33,603 bases of DNA from Ilumatobacteraceae bacterium (GCA_025463265.1 JAOBWH010000126.1:1-33603), one strand, 5' to 3'. Positions 7,099 to 31,761 are shown, counted from the first letter of the stretch. Notes: generated by a model from the letters alone, not told the origin. Numbers and translations are program-made.

Positions 7099-7126
7099 GT
7101 ACCCGCTGCAGAGCCGGAACCAAACC
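7099..7126 (-). promoter_or_regulatory. SigF/SigB-type promoter
   Basis: On the minus strand, GGTTT (7126-7122), a 17-base spacer, then GGGTAC (7104-7099). It lies between the STAS gene stop and the ATG of the 160-aa membrane protein (7055). It matches the GGTTT-N15..17-GGGTA pattern known for mycobacterial SigF and Bacillus SigB. Confidence 0.7.
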
Positions 7127-10510: not shown

Positions 10511-10536
10511 CTACCCGGGGACCGGCTCACGAAACC
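10511..10536 (-). promoter_or_regulatory. SigF/SigB-type promoter of the antiporter gene
   Basis: On the minus strand, GGTTT (10536-10532), a 15-base spacer, GGGTAG (10516-10511). It lies upstream of the antiporter gene. A second, weaker GTTG-N14-GGGTAG arrangement lies at 10603-10626. Confidence 0.7.
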
Positions 10537-12479: not shown

Positions 12480-12504
12480 CTACCCGGTGGCTCGTGGCGG
12501 AAAC
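12480..12504 (-). promoter_or_regulatory. SigF/SigB-type promoter of the lipoprotein-hydrolase unit
   Basis: On the minus strand, GTTT (12504-12501), a 15-base spacer, GGGTAG (12485-12480). Predicted start near 12473 gives a leader of about 28 bases to the ATG at 12445. Confidence 0.72.
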
Positions 12505-16963: not shown

Positions 16964-16988
16964 CTACCCCGGCGCCCGGGCAGCAAAC
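16964..16988 (-). promoter_or_regulatory. SigF/SigB-type promoter of the FAD-Rieske/ligase unit
   Basis: On the minus strand, GTTT (16988-16985), a 15-base spacer, GGGTAG (16969-16964). The predicted leader to TTG 16902 is about 55 bases. Confidence 0.72.
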
Positions 16989-18304: not shown

Positions 18305-18479
18305 CGGCTCGGTGGTAGAGCAGCCTGCCGTGAGGTGCTCGCAGGGGCCGTCAGGTCCCCGAGCTGTGCTGGAAGACCGAGGTCGTCGATCGATGACCGC
18401 GGACCAGCAGCCTCGACACACCACGTGCACCGCAGTCTGAAGAAGCCGGACTCGGTTGCCCCGCACTTGCGAGGTACCC

Positions 18480-19355
18480 ATGTCCACCCTTCACCGCTCC
18501 TCCGGCCAACTCGTCGAGGCCCCTCCGCTCCGCCATCGTCGCTCCGCTGCGTCGATGCACGATGCGGAGAGCCTCGAGCGGACGATCCCTCGTGGCCGTC
18601 ACGAGCGCGACGAGGACCAGACCCCTGCGGTCGATCAGCGCGTCTGGCTCGACCACCTGGAGTTCGCCCGCACCGGCGACGCCGCCGTGCTCGCTCGGCT
18701 CGTGGCCGAGTACGAGCGCTACGCCCGGTCGCTGGCGCGGCGGATGTGGCGCGACGGCGAGCCCAGCGAAGACCTCGACCAGGTCGCGCTGGAGGCCCTC
18801 GTGGTGGCGCTGCGCCGCTTCGACCCCGAGCGCGGGATCCCGTTCCCGGCGTTCGCCACCCCCACCATCCTCGGCTCCCTGCGACGGCACTACCGGGACC
18901 AGGGCTGGCTGGTCCGGGTCCCTCGCCGGGTGCACGAGTTCGCCGTGGCGGAGCGCGACACGACCGATCGGCTCGTCGTCCGGCTGGGCCGCCAGCCCAC
19001 CGCGGCGGAGCTCGCCACGGAGATGTGCGTCGATCTCGACGTGGTGCTCGAGGCCCAGGACGCCCTGCACGCACGCAACACCCGGTCGTTCGAGGCGGCC
19101 GGGCCCGACGGGCAGCTGCTCGGCGACCAGGTGGGTGCCGAGGACGGCCGGCTGTCGGCATCCGTGGACCGCGTGGCGCTCATGGAGGCGATCCGCACCA
19201 TCGACGGCCCGGCGAAGGAGCTGCTGCACCTCTACTTCTTCGAGGAGCGGTCCCAGTCGGACATCGCCGAGCACCTCGGCATCAGCCAGATGCAGGTCTC
19301 GCGGCTGCTGAGCGCGGTGCTGCGGCGCCTCCGCTCGCAGGTGGGGCCACGCTGA
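18480..19355 (+). CDS. Alternative sigma factor, SigB/SigF/SigG family
   Basis: A 291-aa sigma-70 group 3 factor. After a variable N terminus (about 1-50) come region 2 (LVAEYERYARSLARRMWRD, then SEDLDQVALEALVVALRRFDP and FPAFATPTILGSLRRHYRD), region 3 (VPRRVHEFAVAERD, LGRQPTAAELATEM) and region 4 (IDGPAKELLHLYFFEERSQ, then DIAEHLGISQMQVSRLLSAV, the helix-turn-helix reading the -35 box). The FPAFATPTILGSLRRHYRD block and the overall length are typical of general-stress and sporulation sigma factors. ATG 18480 is preferred over an in-frame TTG at 18456. No anti-sigma gene is adjacent. A matching promoter lies upstream. Its last 74 bases overlap the 3' end of the opposing glycosidase-like gene. 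Confidence 0.92.
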   Translation: MSTLHRSSGQLVEAPPLRHRRSAASMHDAESLERTIPRGRHERDEDQTPAVDQRVWLDHLEFARTGDAAVLARLVAEYERYARSLARRMWRDGEPSEDLDQVALEALVVALRRFDPERGIPFPAFATPTILGSLRRHYRDQGWLVRVPRRVHEFAVAERDTTDRLVVRLGRQPTAAELATEMCVDLDVVLEAQDALHARNTRSFEAAGPDGQLLGDQVGAEDGRLSASVDRVALMEAIRTIDGPAKELLHLYFFEERSQSDIAEHLGISQMQVSRLLSAVLRRLRSQVGPR

Positions 19356-20682
19356 CCGTCCGGCTGCTCCGGGATCCGCCAGCTCCATCGGGCAGGCCCG
19401 GGGGCGCCACGTCGGGTGCTCGGGCGTCGGGGTTCGGCCCGTGCTCGTCGGCCGGCGGATCGATCCAGTCCCAGTGCGCCATGTGCGGCATCCAGCCGGC
19501 GATCCAGTCGGTGACGGGCGGTCGGAACCGGTAGGCCGGCAGCTGGCGAGCGGTCGCGCCGCCGGCAGCCAGGGCGAACGCCCGGCTCATGGAGGACCGG
19601 TGCCGATCGAAGTGCTCGTCGAGCCAGAACACGCCCACCGGGTCGATCGCTCCCTCGGACGACACGAGCTGGGAGGCCCAGTCGGCCGAGTCGATGGTGG
19701 GGAACCAGCAGCAACCCTCGATCTCGACTCCGCGGTCGGCCGCCAGCTCGCACTGCTCGACGGCGTAGCGGAGCCAGCTGGCCCGATCCGACGGGAAGCC
19801 GCGGAGGTTGGTCTCGGTCAGCGAGCAGGGCCGGTCGTAGCGGTGGGCGTACTCGACGATGAGATCGGACAGGGGCGGGGGCGCGGGGGCCACGTTGGTG
19901 CCCTTCCCGTCGCCGGTCCAGTGCCACTGGTTGTGGGCGTAGTAGTCGATGCCGATCACGTCGACGTGGCCCGGCGCCATCTCCAGCAGGGCCTCGCCGC
20001 CGTGGCTGGCCACGAGCTCGACGGAGGGACGGCCCGGGTCGACGGCGGTGCCGGTCAGCAGGTCCGTGAACAGGAACCGGCGGTCGTTGTACAGCTCGGC
20101 GGTGGCCCGGCCGGCCGCCTCCCACGTGTGGCGCTCCGCGGCCTCGACGTGGACGTGGCGGGCCTGGGGGAGCGCTCGTTCGAGGCGCCGAGACGCCTCG
20201 GCCACGACCGGCAAGATGTTCGTGGCCAGCTCGACGAACCCGTCGAGCCCCGTGCGGTGAGGCGCCCACAGGCCGAGCTCGCCGCACATGAGGACCGTGG
20301 TGAACGGCTCGTTGCACACCGTGTAGGCCGGCAGCCACGGGTACCGGTCGGCCACCGCCTCGGCGAAGCGGAGGAACGCCGGGCCGAACGCCGGCGAGCT
20401 GAGGTCCCCGATCCAGGCCGGGTAGCTGGTGTGGTGCAGGAGGTCCACGATGGGGGCCAGCCCGAGGTCGCGCTGGTGGTGCAGGACGGCATCGGTGTGG
20501 GTCCAGTCGTAGCGGCCCGGCTCGGGCTCGATGCGGTGCCAGCGCAACGGGTAGCGCAGCCCCCGGACGCCGAGCGACGCGAGGAGGTCCAGGTCGCTCC
20601 GCCAGCGCCGGTCGTGCTGGGTGGTCTCCACCACATCGACGTCGAACGCCGGCTGGTAGGTCGATTCGAACGCGCCCAGCAT
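19282..20682 (-). CDS. GH1-like glycoside hydrolase
   Basis: A 466-aa protein with a TIM-barrel glycosidase pattern. GLRYPLRWHRIEPEPGRYDW is typical of GH1-type barrels, VCNEP supplies the acid/base Glu125, and SLTETNLRG the candidate nucleophile Glu290. The family call is tentative because the GH1 ENG and sugar-binding blocks are not intact. ATG 20682 (or GTG 20688) lies just after the aldo/keto reductase stop at 20696, so it is the last gene of a four-gene sugar operon. The final 45 or so residues are Pro/Ala/Ser-rich and disordered, encoded where the gene overlaps the sigma factor gene on the other strand. It has no signal peptide, so it is cytosolic and may act on an intracellular or nascent glycoside. 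Confidence 0.82.
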   Translation of the reverse strand: MLGAFESTYQPAFDVDVVETTQHDRRWRSDLDLLASLGVRGLRYPLRWHRIEPEPGRYDWTHTDAVLHHQRDLGLAPIVDLLHHTSYPAWIGDLSSPAFGPAFLRFAEAVADRYPWLPAYTVCNEPFTTVLMCGELGLWAPHRTGLDGFVELATNILPVVAEASRRLERALPQARHVHVEAAERHTWEAAGRATAELYNDRRFLFTDLLTGTAVDPGRPSVELVASHGGEALLEMAPGHVDVIGIDYYAHNQWHWTGDGKGTNVAPAPPPLSDLIVEYAHRYDRPCSLTETNLRGFPSDRASWLRYAVEQCELAADRGVEIEGCCWFPTIDSADWASQLVSSEGAIDPVGVFWLDEHFDRHRSSMSRAFALAAGGATARQLPAYRFRPPVTDWIAGWMPHMAHWDWIDPPADEHGPNPDARAPDVAPPGLPDGAGGSRSSRTVSVAPPASGGAAAPRSAAARPASG

Positions 20683-20695
20683 CTCCACAGGCTGC

Positions 20696-21754
20696 TCAGT
20701 CCGCAGGAGCCGACCGCACCGGCGGGCGAGCCGGACCGGCGCCGGCCGACGTGGCCTCGATGGCCGCGGCGATCTGGTCGAGGTCCTCGGGTGCGAGCGA
20801 GACACCGGCTGCGCCCACCCACCCGTCGACCTGGGCCGGGCTGCGCGCCCCCACGATGGCGCCGGTGACGGGCGTCCAGTGGAGGGTCCATGCGATGGCC
20901 AGCTCCGACACCGACGCGCCGAGGCGTTCGGCGATCGGGGCGATGGCGTCGACCAGGGCGAGGTTGGCGTCGAGGCCCGGTGGCTGGAAGTCGGGATCGC
21001 TGCTCCGCCAGTCGTCGTCGGGGAGCGACGCCGCGCGCTGCGCATCGAACGCACCGCTCAGGAGTCCCGAGCGCATCGGGCTGTAGACGATCACGCCGGT
21101 GCCGTGCGCCTCGCACCACGGCAGCGTGTCGCCGCCGGCGTCTCGCACCAGCAGGTTCAGCTGCGGCTGGAACGTGTCGACGTGGCGGACGGACTCGCAC
21201 CGGTCGAGCAGCTCCACGTCGAAGTTGCTCACACCGATGAAGCGCACCTTGCCCTCGGTCACCAGGTCGGCCATGGTCTGCCAGGACTCCTCGATGGGCG
21301 TCCCGTCCTCGCCCGGCCAGTGGATCTGCAGCAGATCCAGGGCCCCGACGCCGAGGCGGCGCAGCGATGCCTCGCACTCGGAGCGGATCGACGCCGGGGT
21401 GAGCACGTTGTCGAAGGGCTTGGTGTCGTCCTCCCACACCAGGCCGCACTTGGTGAACACCAGGGGCCGGTCCTGAGCTGGCAGGCGGCGGACCGCTTCG
21501 CCGACCACCATCTCGGCGCGACCGCGTCCGTAGCCGGGCGCGGTGTCGATCCAGCCGATGCCGAGCTCGACGGCCCGGTGGATGGCGGCGATGGAGTCGG
21601 TGTCGTCCTGGGGGCCCCACCCTCCCTGGGCCCCGCCGCCGCCGATGGCCCAGGCCCCGAGGCCGAGGCGGGTGATGTCGAGCCCGGTGGTGCCGAGCGG
21701 CGCCTCGGGCAGCGCCTGCTCGGGCTGGCGGGTCTCGTCGGTGGAGGCGCTCAT
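20696..21754 (-). CDS. Aldo/keto reductase
   Basis: A 352-aa NADP-dependent (beta/alpha)8-barrel reductase. The catalytic tetrad is visible: Asp70 (WIDTAP), Tyr75 (GYGRGRAE), Lys102 (VFTKCG) and His145 (LQIHWPG). The cofactor block near the C terminus (AIVGARSPAQVDGWVGA) is also present. The closest look is to the AKR subgroup that acts on sugar or general aldehydes. ATG 21754 overlaps the stop of the upstream flavoprotein gene as ATGA (21751-21754), and the glycosidase-like gene starts 13 bases after its stop. In this setting it probably reduces a keto- or aldehyde-sugar or a toxic aldehyde; the substrate is not known. Confidence 0.92.
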   Translation of the reverse strand: MSASTDETRQPEQALPEAPLGTTGLDITRLGLGAWAIGGGGAQGGWGPQDDTDSIAAIHRAVELGIGWIDTAPGYGRGRAEMVVGEAVRRLPAQDRPLVFTKCGLVWEDDTKPFDNVLTPASIRSECEASLRRLGVGALDLLQIHWPGEDGTPIEESWQTMADLVTEGKVRFIGVSNFDVELLDRCESVRHVDTFQPQLNLLVRDAGGDTLPWCEAHGTGVIVYSPMRSGLLSGAFDAQRAASLPDDDWRSSDPDFQPPGLDANLALVDAIAPIAERLGASVSELAIAWTLHWTPVTGAIVGARSPAQVDGWVGAAGVSLAPEDLDQIAAAIEATSAGAGPARPPVRSAPAD

Positions 21755-23139
21755 CGGATCCCCTCGCCGGCCTGGCCCTCACCGCGAGGGATCCACACGG
21801 TCTCGGGGTCGCCGGCGAGCGCGTTGTCCACGAACGCGACGCCCTGCATGGTGGAGTGGTCCATGTTGCCGATCTCGTAGAGCCAGGCGCCGTCGCGGCC
21901 GCGGGACCAGATGCCCTGCTCGCGCAGCCACGGCTGGATCGTGCCCAGACTGGCGTCCCGGGTGGTCGACGGCACGGGATAGGACTTCTCCGGCGAGCAG
22001 AGCCAGGTGGTGACGATCTTGTCCCGATCGTCCTCGGTCATCAGGCCGGTGGAGATGAGGCCGTCGATGACGCGCTCGACGATCGTGTCGGCCGGTTCGG
22101 GCTTGTGGCCCGACTGCGACGTCTCGGTGAGCAGCAGCGTCTGGTCCGGCTTCGCCGTCATGTACGGCGAGTAGTTCGACAAGTAGGTGACCCGGTAGAA
22201 GGGCACGTCCGGCTCGGGGAAGTAGATCCAGTTCTTCGTCGAGCCGGCCGGCCGGTCGATGCCCACCCCGACGATGTGGCTCCCGCTCCAGTGCAGGCCC
22301 TGGGCGGCTTCGGTGATCGCGGCCGGCACGGACTCCGTCACCTCGATGAGCGACGTAAGCGGCATCGTGGACAGGAGGTGGTCGTAGGGGTAGGTGGTGC
22401 CGTCTGCGGTCCGCACCACCTTGGCGACCGGGTCGACCGACGCCACGGGGGTGTCGAGCCGGATGTGGTCCTCCAGGGCGGCGTGCATGCCGTCGTAGAG
22501 GAACCCGGTCCCGCCTCGCAGCGGGTAGCGGAACGTGTTGTTCGGCCCCCAGGAGCGCTCGCCCTGGCGGAGGATCACGTTGCGCAGCACCGCTTCGACG
22601 TCGACCACCGAGACCCGCTCGCCGATCCAGACGTGGTTCATGAGCTCGGCGGGCGTCGCCCACACCTTGAAGTTGTACGGGAGCATGAAGTGCTCGGCGA
22701 TCCCCTCGCCGAACACAGTGTCGACCCAATCGCGGAAGTTCTCGACGGGGCGGGCGGCCGCCTTCTGGGCGGCGATGAGCCCGTTGACGCACTCGAAGAC
22801 GGTCTGCGGTTCGAGGTCGGCGAGGTTGTTCTGGAACGGGTACGGGATGAAGCGGTCCTCCATCCACACCCACGCCTCGCGGTCCAGCTCGGTGTAGTCC
22901 GGCCCCATGAGCTTCTCGACCAGGCGGTCGTAGTAGTCGTAGTGGCTGAACATGACGTGGCCGCCGATGTCGTAGGTGAACCCGGCGTCGTCGGTGAACG
23001 ACGTCGCCAGGCCGCCGACGCGGTCGCTGGCCTCGAGGATGACCCAGTCCTCGTGACCGAGCTCCTGGAGCCGCCACCCTGCGCCGAGCCCGGTCGGCCC
23101 GGCTCCGATGATGACGATGCGGTCCTTGGAGGTGCTCAT
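21751..23139 (-). CDS. FAD-dependent UDP-galactopyranose mutase-like oxidoreductase
   Basis: A 462-aa flavoprotein. The N-terminal fold IVIIGAGPTGLGAGWRL (about 8-24), the motif EASDRVGGLATSF and the C-terminal FVDNALAGD-type region bind FAD. The segment DRFIPYPFQNNL and the block YPLRGGTGFLYDGM resemble UDP-galactopyranose mutase and the protoporphyrinogen-oxidase-like group of NAD(P)-binding proteins. It is longer than classical Glf (about 370-400 aa) and may be a divergent mutase or a sugar oxidase. ATGA overlaps join it to the glycosyltransferase gene upstream (23136-23139) and to the aldo/keto reductase gene downstream, which argues for a joint pathway. Cytosolic or membrane-associated. 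Confidence 0.85.
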   Translation of the reverse strand: MSTSKDRIVIIGAGPTGLGAGWRLQELGHEDWVILEASDRVGGLATSFTDDAGFTYDIGGHVMFSHYDYYDRLVEKLMGPDYTELDREAWVWMEDRFIPYPFQNNLADLEPQTVFECVNGLIAAQKAAARPVENFRDWVDTVFGEGIAEHFMLPYNFKVWATPAELMNHVWIGERVSVVDVEAVLRNVILRQGERSWGPNNTFRYPLRGGTGFLYDGMHAALEDHIRLDTPVASVDPVAKVVRTADGTTYPYDHLLSTMPLTSLIEVTESVPAAITEAAQGLHWSGSHIVGVGIDRPAGSTKNWIYFPEPDVPFYRVTYLSNYSPYMTAKPDQTLLLTETSQSGHKPEPADTIVERVIDGLISTGLMTEDDRDKIVTTWLCSPEKSYPVPSTTRDASLGTIQPWLREQGIWSRGRDGAWLYEIGNMDHSTMQGVAFVDNALAGDPETVWIPRGEGQAGEGIR

Positions 23140-24323
23140 GACGCCACGCTCCGCAGATCGGCCTCGGCCTCGGCTCCGACCTCGGCTCCGACGCCGACCT
23201 CGGGCCGGGGTGCCAGGTGGGGCTCGATCAGCTCGGCCATGCGGCCGGCGATGCCGTCCCAGCTGCGCCGGGCCAGCAGCTCCGCCACCTGGAGGTCACG
23301 GCGGGCGACGTCGTCGTGGGCGACGCGGGCGCACGCCTCGGCGAAGGACGCACCGTCGTCCTGGAGGTCCACCGCGGCGACGCACTCGGCGACCACGTCG
23401 GGAACTCGGGTGGACACCACCGGGAGACCGGCGGCGAGGTACTCGAGGGTCTTGGTGGGGCTGATCGAGCGGGTCGCCTCGTTGAGGGCGAACGGCATGA
23501 GGGCCACGTCGAACCCGGCCATCACCGCCGGGAGGTCCCGGTACTCACGGGACCCGAAGTAGGAGATGTTGGGGCGCTGGGGCAGGTCCTCGGGCTCGAT
23601 CTTCATCACCGGGCCGACCATGTGGATCTCCCAGTCGGGCAGGCGGTCGGCCAGGTCGGCGACGAGCGCAAGGTCCAGCCGCTCGTCGATGACCCCGACG
23701 TAGCCCGCGACCAGGGGCCGGGGCCCGACCGGCCCTGCGCCAGAGGACCGGGCGGAGCGGTAGTGGTCGATGTCGACACCGGAGGCGAACTGGTGGACGC
23801 CGTCGTCGCGCAGCCGGAGGATCGACTCGTGGAGCGAGCGTCCCCCGGTGAACACGACGTCGGCGGACCGCACTGCCTCGATCTGGGCGGCGACGAGCGC
23901 CGGCGGGGCGCCGGCGAACGACGCCAGGTCGTCCATCACGTCGTACACGAGGGCGCGAGGGCCGACGCACCGGGCCAGCGGCAGGGCGAGCGGGGTGTAG
24001 AGCCAGGCGAGCCGGTCGTCGCAGGACCCGAGCGCCTCGGGCAGCAGCGAGAGGTAGGCATCGACCGCCTGCTCGTCGAAGCTCGCCGTCGGGTTGTGCT
24101 CGGGCAGCTCCGCCCACAGCCGGGTGACCCCTCCGGCCTCCTCGGTCCGCAGGACCGGCTCGTCGACGGGGCCGGCGACCGGCTCCTCGACGAACCACAC
24201 CCGCCGTCCGTCGGCGATCCGGGAGATCAGGTGCTGGGGCCGCTGCCAGACCCAGTTCCAGCGCAGGTGGGAGAAGACGACCAGGTCGGGCGGGACCCCG
24301 GTGCCTCGGTGGTGATCGACCAT
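23136..24323 (-). CDS. GT-B family glycosyltransferase
   Basis: A 395-aa protein. The N terminus (VVFSHLRWNWVWQRPQHL) is characteristic of a glycosyltransferase subgroup often found beside UDP-galactopyranose mutase-like genes. The C-terminal half shows the GT4-like nucleotide-sugar site: VAGYVGVIDERLD, HMVGPV, NISYFGSREYRDLP, and the SPTKTLEYLAAGLPVVST stretch with a donor-binding Glu. The tail is an acidic Glu/Ala/Val repeat (VGVGAEVGAEAEADL) of low complexity. ATG 24323 is preceded by AGGAGG. It is the first gene of the four-gene operon; no SigF-type box is clear in the 24324-24475 gap. Donor and acceptor are unknown. Confidence 0.88.
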   Translation of the reverse strand: MVDHHRGTGVPPDLVVFSHLRWNWVWQRPQHLISRIADGRRVWFVEEPVAGPVDEPVLRTEEAGGVTRLWAELPEHNPTASFDEQAVDAYLSLLPEALGSCDDRLAWLYTPLALPLARCVGPRALVYDVMDDLASFAGAPPALVAAQIEAVRSADVVFTGGRSLHESILRLRDDGVHQFASGVDIDHYRSARSSGAGPVGPRPLVAGYVGVIDERLDLALVADLADRLPDWEIHMVGPVMKIEPEDLPQRPNISYFGSREYRDLPAVMAGFDVALMPFALNEATRSISPTKTLEYLAAGLPVVSTRVPDVVAECVAAVDLQDDGASFAEACARVAHDDVARRDLQVAELLARRSWDGIAGRMAELIEPHLAPRPEVGVGAEVGAEAEADLRSVAS

Positions 24324-24475: not shown

Positions 24476-25603
24476 GTGCGCCTCGTGTACCAAGAAGCTG
24501 CGCTCCAGCCCTGGTTCGACGCGCTCGCCGACCCCCTGCCCGGGCTGGCGATCCACGACGGCCACCTCCACCTGGGCACCACCGACCCCGCGGGCTACCA
24601 GGCCCAGGAGGCCGAGGTGGTCTCGTCGCTCGAACGCATCGGTGCCCGGGGCGTGGTGTTCCCGGTGCAGGACCCGGCCGGGTACCGCCGGTCGAACGCC
24701 GAGGTCGCGGAGGTGGCGGCACGCAACGCCGGTCGCCTCACCGCGTTCGCTCGCCTCGACCCGGCTGACGATCCGGTCGCCGAGGCCCGGCGCGGGCTCG
24801 AGCGGGGCGTCACCGGTCTGAAGCTGCACCCTCGGGGCGAGGGCTTCGAGCTCGATGACCGGCGCCTCGACGACGTCTTCGCCCTGGCCGACGACCTCCG
24901 TCTGCCGGTGCTGATCCACGCGGGTGTCGGCCACCGGTCCGTGGGCGGCCACGCGCTCGACCGGGCGAAGGCGCACCCCGGCGCACGGCTGGTGCTGGCC
25001 CACGTCGCCGTCGGCGCGTTCACCGATGTGGTGCCGGACCTGGCCGACGTACCCAACCTCCTGGTGGACACCTCGTGGTGGAACCCGTCGGACCTGTGGG
25101 CTGCGTTCCGGCTGATTCCACCCGGTCAGATCGTCCACGGCAGCGACGTGCCGTTCAACAGCCCGGTCCAGGGCGCGCTCATGAGCGCCCGCCTCGGTCT
25201 CCAGGCCGGTCTCAGCCCCGACCAGGTCCGGGCGGTGATGGGCGGGACGTTGGGGCGGCTGCTGGCAGGCGAGGACCTGCCCGACCTCGGACCGGTCGAC
25301 CCGGACGAGGCGCCGTTGGCGCCCGAGCTCGAGCGGGTCTACGTCACCGTGTGCAGCGCCGTCGTCCCGATGCTGGCCGGCGACGACGGCAGCGAGGGCC
25401 TGGAGCTCGCCCGGGCCGCGTGCCAGGCGCCGCAGGGGCCGCACCGCTCGGTGCTGGAGAACGTCGACGCCCTGCTCGAGGCGGCGCAGGCGTGCGAGTC
25501 GCTCGACCCCCTCCGCCCGCTCCGGGCCCCGGGCTTCGATCTGGTCCTGACCGCAGCGCTCGTCGCCCGCACCCCCGATGTGGTGAACCCGGAGCTGCCG
25601 TGA
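24476..25603 (+). CDS. Amidohydrolase-family metal-dependent hydrolase
   Basis: A 375-aa TIM-barrel protein (amidohydrolase 2 type). Metal-site markers appear in order: HDGHLHLG (H30, H32), GLKLHPRGEGF with a Lys and His at the strand end, PVLIHAG, LVLAHVAVG, and HGSDVPFNSP with the catalytic Asp. Members hydrolyse or decarboxylate small cyclic or aromatic acids. Residues beyond about 270 form a helical extension not typical of the family. GTG 24476 is used; a second in-frame GTG at 24485 is possible, and no clear ribosome binding site helps to decide. It lies 52 bases before nuoC on the same strand and is divergent from the sugar operon. Confidence 0.85.
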   Translation: MRLVYQEAALQPWFDALADPLPGLAIHDGHLHLGTTDPAGYQAQEAEVVSSLERIGARGVVFPVQDPAGYRRSNAEVAEVAARNAGRLTAFARLDPADDPVAEARRGLERGVTGLKLHPRGEGFELDDRRLDDVFALADDLRLPVLIHAGVGHRSVGGHALDRAKAHPGARLVLAHVAVGAFTDVVPDLADVPNLLVDTSWWNPSDLWAAFRLIPPGQIVHGSDVPFNSPVQGALMSARLGLQAGLSPDQVRAVMGGTLGRLLAGEDLPDLGPVDPDEAPLAPELERVYVTVCSAVVPMLAGDDGSEGLELARAACQAPQGPHRSVLENVDALLEAAQACESLDPLRPLRAPGFDLVLTAALVARTPDVVNPELP

Positions 25604-30372: not shown

Positions 30373-30538
30373 GGGCAGTTCCCGGCACCCGGGTTGGAGC
30401 CTCGCCCCGCCGCGGCCGAGGAGGGAATCGACGGGCGGGACGAGGCCTCCACCGGCCGACCGCCCGGTGCCCAGCGCCTCAACCAGGCGCGACCGACCCG
30501 GGCCTGTGGTCCAGGGCCTGAGCGGCTCGCGCACGTCT

Positions 30539-30564
30539 GGTTTGCCCGGCGGCCGGGCGGACAG
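30539..30564 (+). promoter_or_regulatory. Degenerate SigF-type promoter candidate before the zinc dehydrogenase gene
   Basis: GGTTT (30539-30543), 15 bases, then GGACAG (30559-30564). The -35 box is perfect but the -10 has two mismatches, so it is weak. The 240-bp gap (30373-30612) otherwise shows only short GC stems, including CCCGG/CCGGG at 30381-30393. Confidence 0.25.
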
Positions 30565-30612
30565 TGGCTGCGCAACGCTGAGGGCCGGCGCGCCCGTGGA
30601 TGGAGGACCCCG

Positions 30613-31761
30613 ATGCAGGCGATGGTGTACCGAGGCCCGTACAAGGTCCGGGTCGAGGAGAAAGCTCCGCCCCGCATCGAGCACCCGAACGACGCCATCG
30701 TGCGCGTGACCCGTGCCGCCATCTGCGGGTCCGACCTGCACCTGTACCACGGCATGATGCCCGACACCCGGGTCGGCATGACCTTCGGGCACGAGTTCAT
30801 CGGGGTGGTCGACGAGGTCGGCCCGTCGGTCGAGCACCTGGCGGTCGGCGATCGGGTGATGGTGCCCTTCAACGTGTACTGCGGCTCGTGCTTCTTCTGC
30901 GCCCGGGGCCTCTTCTCCAACTGCCACAACGTGAACCCCAACGCCACGGCGGTCGGCGGGATCTACGGGTACTCGCACACCTGCGGTGGCTACGACGGCG
31001 GCCAGGCGGAGCTCGTCCGGGTGCCGTTCGCCGACGTGGGCCCGAGCCGCATCCCGGAGTGGATGGACGACGAGGACGCCCTGATGTGCACCGATGCGCT
31101 GGCGACCGGGTACTTCGGCGCCCAGCTCGGCGACATCGCCGAGGGCGACGTCGTGGCCGTCTTCGGTGCCGGACCGGTCGGGTTGTTCGCCGCCCGCTCG
31201 GCGTGGCTCATGGGAGCCGGGCGGGTCATCGTCATCGACCACCTGGACGACCGGCTGGAGATGGCGCGTCGCTTCGCCTTCGCCGAGACGGTCAACTTCA
31301 CCCAGCACCGCGACGTGGTGGTGGAGATGAAGCGGTCGACCGGCTTCCTCGGCGCTGACGTGGCGATCGACGCCGTCGGCGCCGAAGCCGACGGGAACCT
31401 CCTGCAGCACATCACGGCCGCCAAGCTCAAGCTCCAGGGCGGCTCGCCCATCGCTCTGAACTGGGCCATCGACTCGGTCCGCAAGGGCGGCACCGTGTCG
31501 GTGGTGGGCGCCTACGGGCCGATGTTCAGCGCCGTGAAGTTCGGCGATGCCGTGAACAAGGGCCTCACGCTGCGGATGAACCAGTGCCCGGTGAAGCGGC
31601 AGTGGCCCCGTCTCTTCGAGCACATCCGCAACGGTCACCTCAAGCCGAGCGAGGTCATCACGCACCGGATCCCGCTCGAGCACATCGCCGAGGGCTACCA
31701 CCTCTTCTCCGCCAAGCTCGACGGCTGCATCAAGCCCGTCATCACCACCGACGCCGCCTGA
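30613..31761 (+). CDS. Zinc-dependent alcohol dehydrogenase (formaldehyde-dehydrogenase-like MDR)
   Basis: A 382-aa medium-chain dehydrogenase. Catalytic zinc ligands are C38 (CGSDLH) and H60-E61 (GHEF). The structural zinc lobe has four Cys, C90, C93, C96 and C104, in the C-x2-C-x2-C-x7-C pattern. FGAGPVGLFAARSA is the NAD(P) fold and VIDHLDDRLEMA supplies the acidic cofactor residue, favouring NAD. The long inserted C-terminal region (LLQHITAAKLKLQGGSPIA) is typical of the FDH-like subgroup that oxidises aldehydes or hydroxymethyl adducts. GGAGG six bases upstream fixes ATG 30613. The 192-aa gene follows 12 bases after the stop and is co-transcribed. Confidence 0.92.
   Translation: MQAMVYRGPYKVRVEEKAPPRIEHPNDAIVRVTRAAICGSDLHLYHGMMPDTRVGMTFGHEFIGVVDEVGPSVEHLAVGDRVMVPFNVYCGSCFFCARGLFSNCHNVNPNATAVGGIYGYSHTCGGYDGGQAELVRVPFADVGPSRIPEWMDDEDALMCTDALATGYFGAQLGDIAEGDVVAVFGAGPVGLFAARSAWLMGAGRVIVIDHLDDRLEMARRFAFAETVNFTQHRDVVVEMKRSTGFLGADVAIDAVGAEADGNLLQHITAAKLKLQGGSPIALNWAIDSVRKGGTVSVVGAYGPMFSAVKFGDAVNKGLTLRMNQCPVKRQWPRLFEHIRNGHLKPSEVITHRIPLEHIAEGYHLFSAKLDGCIKPVITTDAA

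Follow-up and report, generated by a model that had tools for sequence, protein, structure and literature searches.

The four tightly packed open reading frames that run from 24323 to 19282 on the minus strand of the window, by which we mean the whole 33,603-nucleotide stretch of Ilumatobacteraceae DNA that was analyzed, form one operon, and this operon probably encodes a pathway for a galactofuranose (Galf) glycoconjugate, as judged from its sequence and from related loci. At its core are a glycosyltransferase (GT), a UDP-galactopyranose mutase (UGM) and a GH1-like protein. In relatives at least, the pathway is most likely controlled by stress.

The operon and its mutase

All four frames proposed in an earlier note on this DNA were confirmed on the minus strand. 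The first gene (23136–24323, 395 aa) encodes a GT4-like glycosyltransferase of the GT-B type and is followed by the UGM (21751–23139, 462 aa), an aldo/keto reductase (AKR; 20696–21754, 352 aa) and the GH1-like protein, a predicted retaining glycosidase or transglycosidase (19282–20682, 466 aa), with a third-codon-position GC content of 92–96% across all four genes. The two ATGA overlaps described earlier are exact, at 23139–23136 between the GT and UGM genes and at 21754–21751 between the UGM and AKR genes. The 13-base gap claimed between the AKR and GH1 genes holds if GH1 begins at the ATG at 20682, but not if it begins at an in-frame GTG at 20688. The product of the latter start (MEMLGAFEST...) resembles the N-terminus of the relative at locus L039 (MELLGSFEST...), and therefore the gap may be 7 bases. 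Neither a sigma-70 promoter nor a significant terminator was detected around the operon, and a divergent amidohydrolase gene begins at 24476, 152 bp upstream. A role in anti-phage defence was rejected, as PADLOC gave no meaningful match. Elsewhere in the window, a zinc alcohol dehydrogenase is encoded at 30394–31761; members of the same sequence cluster lie near GH1 in L070, L072, and L084, and in L022 and L023 zinc alcohol dehydrogenases come directly after the gene set.

Judged by its sequence, the operon flavoprotein is a UGM of the eukaryotic class found in fungi and trypanosomes, not the usual bacterial enzyme. It is 41% identical to the UGM of Trypanosoma cruzi (TcUGM), and its matches to TcUGM (4dsg, 374 bits) and to the Aspergillus fumigatus enzyme (AfUGM, 340 bits) span residues 7–446, whereas amine oxidases reached at most 41 bits in a search of solved structures. 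Phytoene desaturase, amine oxidase, and protoporphyrinogen oxidase were rejected as identities for the flavoprotein, their matches being far weaker than those to UGM. The suggested link to sugars was thus borne out, with no grouping with phytoene or amine oxidases, and the label "UGM-like" was right as to the mutase family but understated a full eukaryotic-class UGM. Eukaryotic and bacterial UGMs share only 14–18% identity (PMC3624792). The same function is expected of the operon enzyme as of the Glf in bacterial clusters, and canonical Glf occupies the same operon slot in relatives; however, the operon UGM has no match to PF03275, the family of bacterial Glf, and canonical Glf is absent from the whole genome.

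When the operon UGM was aligned to TcUGM, 17 of 17 compared active-site positions were identical, including the GGH loop. Ten of these residues (H61, V62, R175, N200, Y306, R316, Y387, R415, Y421, and N425) correspond to residues whose roles were described in a QM/MM study of TcUGM (PMC4192007), and the seven further aligned positions are identical as well. The catalytic Arg pair, which the earlier note had singled out as a check, is kept (R175 and R316, equivalent to R176 and R327 of TcUGM), and the same 17 residues are found in all 12 cluster-associated bacterial UGMs (alignment A3). The operon enzyme therefore resembles the T. cruzi and A. fumigatus UGMs in length, in the GGH loop, and in every catalytic and UDP-binding residue compared, but it is bacterial and shares an operon with a GT and a GH1 protein, and its gammaproteobacterial relatives are fused to GT or to GH1-GT.

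In the UGM tree, the T. cruzi and A. fumigatus enzymes are nested among bacterial rows (22-row clade, 99/97), and a clade of both with six bacterial rows has support of 97/94; since only two eukaryotic sequences were included, we take this nesting as a lead. These bacterial relatives would be useful for tracing the origin of the fungal and trypanosomatid enzyme. A PRK07208-like UGM paralogue of about 25–30% identity is also widespread, occurring in this genome (G000:C131:64020-65408) and in L101–L120. The Arg pair is retained in paralogues of about 28% identity, but most of these differ at 4 or more of the 17 active-site positions. V62, Q103, N156, and N200 are mostly replaced by R, K, T, and I, respectively; perhaps these paralogues are mutases for another sugar.

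The glycosyltransferase, the reductase, and the GH1-like protein

The GT has a two-Rossmann GT-B fold with a Glyco_trans_1 domain (PF13692, 45 bits). Its AlphaFold2 model (pLDDT 89.8) is similar to retaining enzymes of the GT4 type, among them MshA (3c48/3c4q), the best Foldseek match. The best NCBIfam match is the teichuronic acid glycosyltransferase TuaH, but its score of 84 bits lies far under the equivalog cut-off of 550. The AKR matches PF00248 above the cut-off (212 bits). Its orthologues, at 66–68% identity, adjoin GH1 or UGM in L022, L023, L027, and L029, five loci have relatives at 56–68% identity, and reductases of other kinds (RmlD fusions, SDRs, and other AKRs) recur elsewhere. Of the four genes grouped at the outset, GH1, GT, and mutase make up the core, while the AKR is the least constant member and an accessory.

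The fourth operon protein is a divergent member of GH1 that retains the two catalytic glutamates. Its score against PF00232 (32.7 bits) passes the gathering cut-off of 22.6, whereas its score against NCBIfam BGL (47 bits) is far under the equivalog cut-off of 478. The GH1 fold suggested for it was supported by the AlphaFold2 model (pLDDT 87.2), which matches the GH1 enzyme of Thermotoga maritima (TmGH1; 2j7h/1od0) with a VIA-align Z of 36.4 at 2.4 Å over 365 residues; residues 419–466 are disordered, and no signal peptide is evident. E125 and E290 align with the catalytic glutamates of GH1, and the acid/base N124-E125 and the nucleophile E290 are invariant among 30 relatives, from Actinomycetota to Deinococcus, Hymenobacter, and Proteobacteria. 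The protein thus shares with TmGH1 the fold, the acid/base NE, and the nucleophile E. However, it is only 16–22% identical to GH1 beta-glycosidases and sits within a biosynthetic operon. In addition, the Glu that binds the glycone (E405 in TmGH1) is replaced by D334, and the Trp that GH1 enzymes conserve behind the first His (W122 in TmGH1) by T85. Gln20 of TmGH1 is presumably the N-terminal residue of the −1 subsite, and the GH1 sequence alignments begin beyond its equivalent. In two Deinococcus loci (L122:7540-9903 and L138:5965-8208), a protein annotated as acyl-CoA dehydrogenase has a GH1-like N-terminal domain and is followed by a PIG-L deacetylase gene.

To our knowledge, no cytosolic GH1 protein occurs in the usual capsule and O-antigen clusters. 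In plants, SFR2 is a GH1 transglycosidase. Another, the cytosolic SoGH1, is a precedent for a GH1 that builds glycosides in the cytosol (PMC11782082). The likeness of the operon protein to these plant enzymes lies in this biosynthetic precedent.

Conservation and fusion of the gene set

A GH1 profile search yielded 63 GH1 loci, mostly from Actinomycetota but also from Chloroflexota, Acidobacteriota, and one Chthoniobacterales, and several come, by their titles, from desert-soil or crust isolates or MAGs. The gene set had been said to occur in stress-tolerant bacteria, and it is indeed kept in such bacteria, far beyond this genome: the same GT subfamily, which recurs across phyla at 37–60% identity, is encoded near GH1 (within 7 kb) in 51 of the 63 loci. 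A mutase is found in this neighbourhood in 22 loci, divided equally between eukaryotic-class UGM (11) and canonical Glf (11). That two barely related classes of mutase share one slot suggests that mutase activity is what matters, and we consider this the strongest argument for the Galf pathway. GT, glf, and GH1 also occur together on plasmids of Mesorhizobium, Skermanella, and Caballeronia, forming GT-glf-GH1 operons in Mesorhizobium and Skermanella; in plasmid records, the bacterial relatives of the eukaryotic-class UGM are annotated merely as FAD-dependent oxidoreductase or NAD(P)-binding protein.

The module is also joined by gene fusion. GH1 and GT form a single ORF in nine actinobacterial loci, and the reverse order, a GT domain followed by GH1, is found in Ensifer, Paracoccus, and Aureimonas. 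GT-Glf fusions are present in Sphingobium and Azospirillum, and a GT-UGM fusion in Methylomagnum, where GH2, galT, and galK come after it. In Chimaeribacter arupi (1263 aa) and Pantoea eucrina (1242 aa), GH1, GT, and UGM are combined in one protein, and GH1 is fused to an RmlD-type reductase in Deinococcus deserti and in Sphingobium (Proteobacteria). The natural GH1-GT fusions in this GH1 clade point to a biosynthetic use of the hydrolase fold.

By contrast, about 20 Arthrobacter-group loci (L028, L033–L035, L038, L040–L044, L047–L050, L053–L055, L058, L081, and also L026) have no mutase by GH1-GT. Instead, a cytidylyltransferase-SDR fusion resembling CDP-ribitol synthase and a LicD-methyltransferase protein precede GH1-GT, possibly a teichoic-acid-like variant of the module. 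Mutase and LicD do not occur together in any of the 63 loci. One of these records, L034, is titled Vibrio cholerae strain 35D, yet in gene order and similarity the locus matches Arthrobacter, and the record is probably a mislabelled assembly.

At the level of genomes, a mutase was present somewhere in 31 of 31 further GH1 genomes (29 with Glf, 2 with the eukaryotic class), 30 of which have none within 7 kb of GH1. In a phylum sample of 198 genomes, a mutase is encoded by all six in which GH1 matched strongly, compared with about 33 of the 192 others (Fisher p = 4e-5), and in the family of Arthrobacter crusticola, the Micrococcaceae, Glf is present in 8 of 8 GH1 genomes vs. 54 of 112 (p = 0.004), although related genomes are not independent samples and kinship inflates all these numbers. 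Since about half of Micrococcaceae have Glf anyway, part of the co-occurrence in that family is background.

A putative galactofuranose pathway and its control

In the proposed pathway, Leloir genes would supply UDP-galactose, which the eukaryotic-class UGM would convert to UDP-Galf. The GT-B enzyme would then transfer Galf, or a Galf-carrying sugar, to an acceptor in the cytosol, and the GH1 enzyme would trim or rearrange the resulting glycoside by a retaining two-glutamate mechanism, while the AKR may set the redox state of the sugar or aglycone. The product, perhaps a glycan or glycolipid that serves at the surface or in the membrane during stress, would be exported last. Among these steps, we infer with good support that UDP-galactose is converted to UDP-Galf and that GT and GH1 act together. 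In the clusters most closely related to that of the window (L024, L025, and L027), galE (390 bits in L025, cut-off 262), galT, galK, and GH2 are interleaved with GH1, GT, and UGM, and in this genome galK and galT matches are adjacent on another contig; the presence of nearby gal genes along with UGM points to the conversion of UDP-galactose to UDP-Galf. An MsbA-type ABC transporter is encoded directly after the set in L127, L137, L140, and L145 (two species of Skermanella, Azospirillum, and Chimaeribacter). As counterpoints to the Galf pathway, the AKR orthologue is rare, and the CDP-ribitol synthase and LicD genes that replace the mutase in the Arthrobacter group suggest that UDP-Galf may not be the substrate of the GT itself.

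The galK, galT, galE, and GH2 genes clustered with the set in those three relatives, along with the retained fold and both catalytic glutamates, are also what one would expect if GH1 were a salvage glycosidase that hydrolyses imported galactosides, with galK, galT, and galE feeding UDP-galactose to the mutase and the product left untouched. We consider such a role unlikely, however, because gal genes are not nearby in most loci and because of the fusion partners of GH1: an RmlD-type reductase in Deinococcus and Proteobacteria, GT in nine actinobacterial loci, and GT-UGM in Pantoea and Chimaeribacter. The last two kinds of fusion suggest that GH1 acts on the product of the GT. It is quite improbable that the mutase has shifted to another nucleotide sugar, giving a product with a different furanose: in its favour are the paralogues whose active site is altered, one of which this genome encodes, but all 17 active-site residues here are those of enzymes proven on UDP-Galp, Leloir genes adjoin the set in relatives, and canonical Glf fills the same slot. 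That AKR, GT, and GH1 each belong to large families and that gene order differs among phyla could mean that common carbohydrate genes are only loosely grouped here and share no pathway, but the translation-coupled overlaps, the recurrence of one GT subfamily across phyla, and the GH1-GT, GT-Glf, GT-UGM, and triple fusions make this hardly credible.

Returning to the Galf pathway, we tentatively entertain a more far-reaching version of it, which we regard as doubtful as a whole: GH1 would be a cytosolic galactofuranosyl (or Galf-glycan) transglycosidase, the module would make an undescribed Galf glycolipid or glycan under the control of a general-stress sigma factor in many bacteria, from several phyla, that live in desert soil or on rock or tolerate radiation, and the eukaryotic UGM class would descend from this bacterial family. 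Work on galactofuranose has mostly concerned its part in virulence. The sugar would gain a second role if free-living bacteria, often from deserts, do widely carry a Galf module, one that in several lineages has stress-type promoters, and the requirement for the mutase is a prediction directly testable in culturable Arthrobacter or Skermanella. A search of the open full-text literature, a weak negative with subscription papers outside its scope, returned no account of a GT/UGM/GH1 operon, of a link between UGM and general stress, of a eukaryotic-type bacterial UGM, or of Glf fusions.

With regard to stress control, the convergent neighbour of the operon (18456–19355, plus strand) encodes a sigma factor of the SigB/SigF/SigG family (TIGR02980, 197 bits vs. 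a cut-off of 234), at most a candidate member of the system, and overlaps the 3' end of the GH1 gene by 74 bp. This tail-to-tail placement by itself says nothing about regulation. We scored a SigB-type promoter motif (GTTT-N14-17-GGGTA, 9 positions) in a window of 280 bases around the operon start. At least 8 of the 9 positions matched in 15 of 61 related loci, compared with 3% of random windows, and the match was perfect in 5 of 61, compared with 0.2%. For the operon described here, the best site scores 7/9, which is chance level (reached by 27% of random windows).

Outside the operon, five GTTT-N15-17-GGGTA sites lie between 7100 and 18303, where 0.17 would be expected, and the pattern has only 27 matches in the whole 4.05-Mb genome. 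One (18279, plus strand) is upstream of the sigma gene itself; those on the minus strand are at 16965, before a DAO-Rieske oxidoreductase and then GCS2, at 12481, upstream of an alpha/beta hydrolase, at 10512, before a Na/H exchanger, and at 7100. Together, these sites have the look of a local stress regulon next to its sigma factor.
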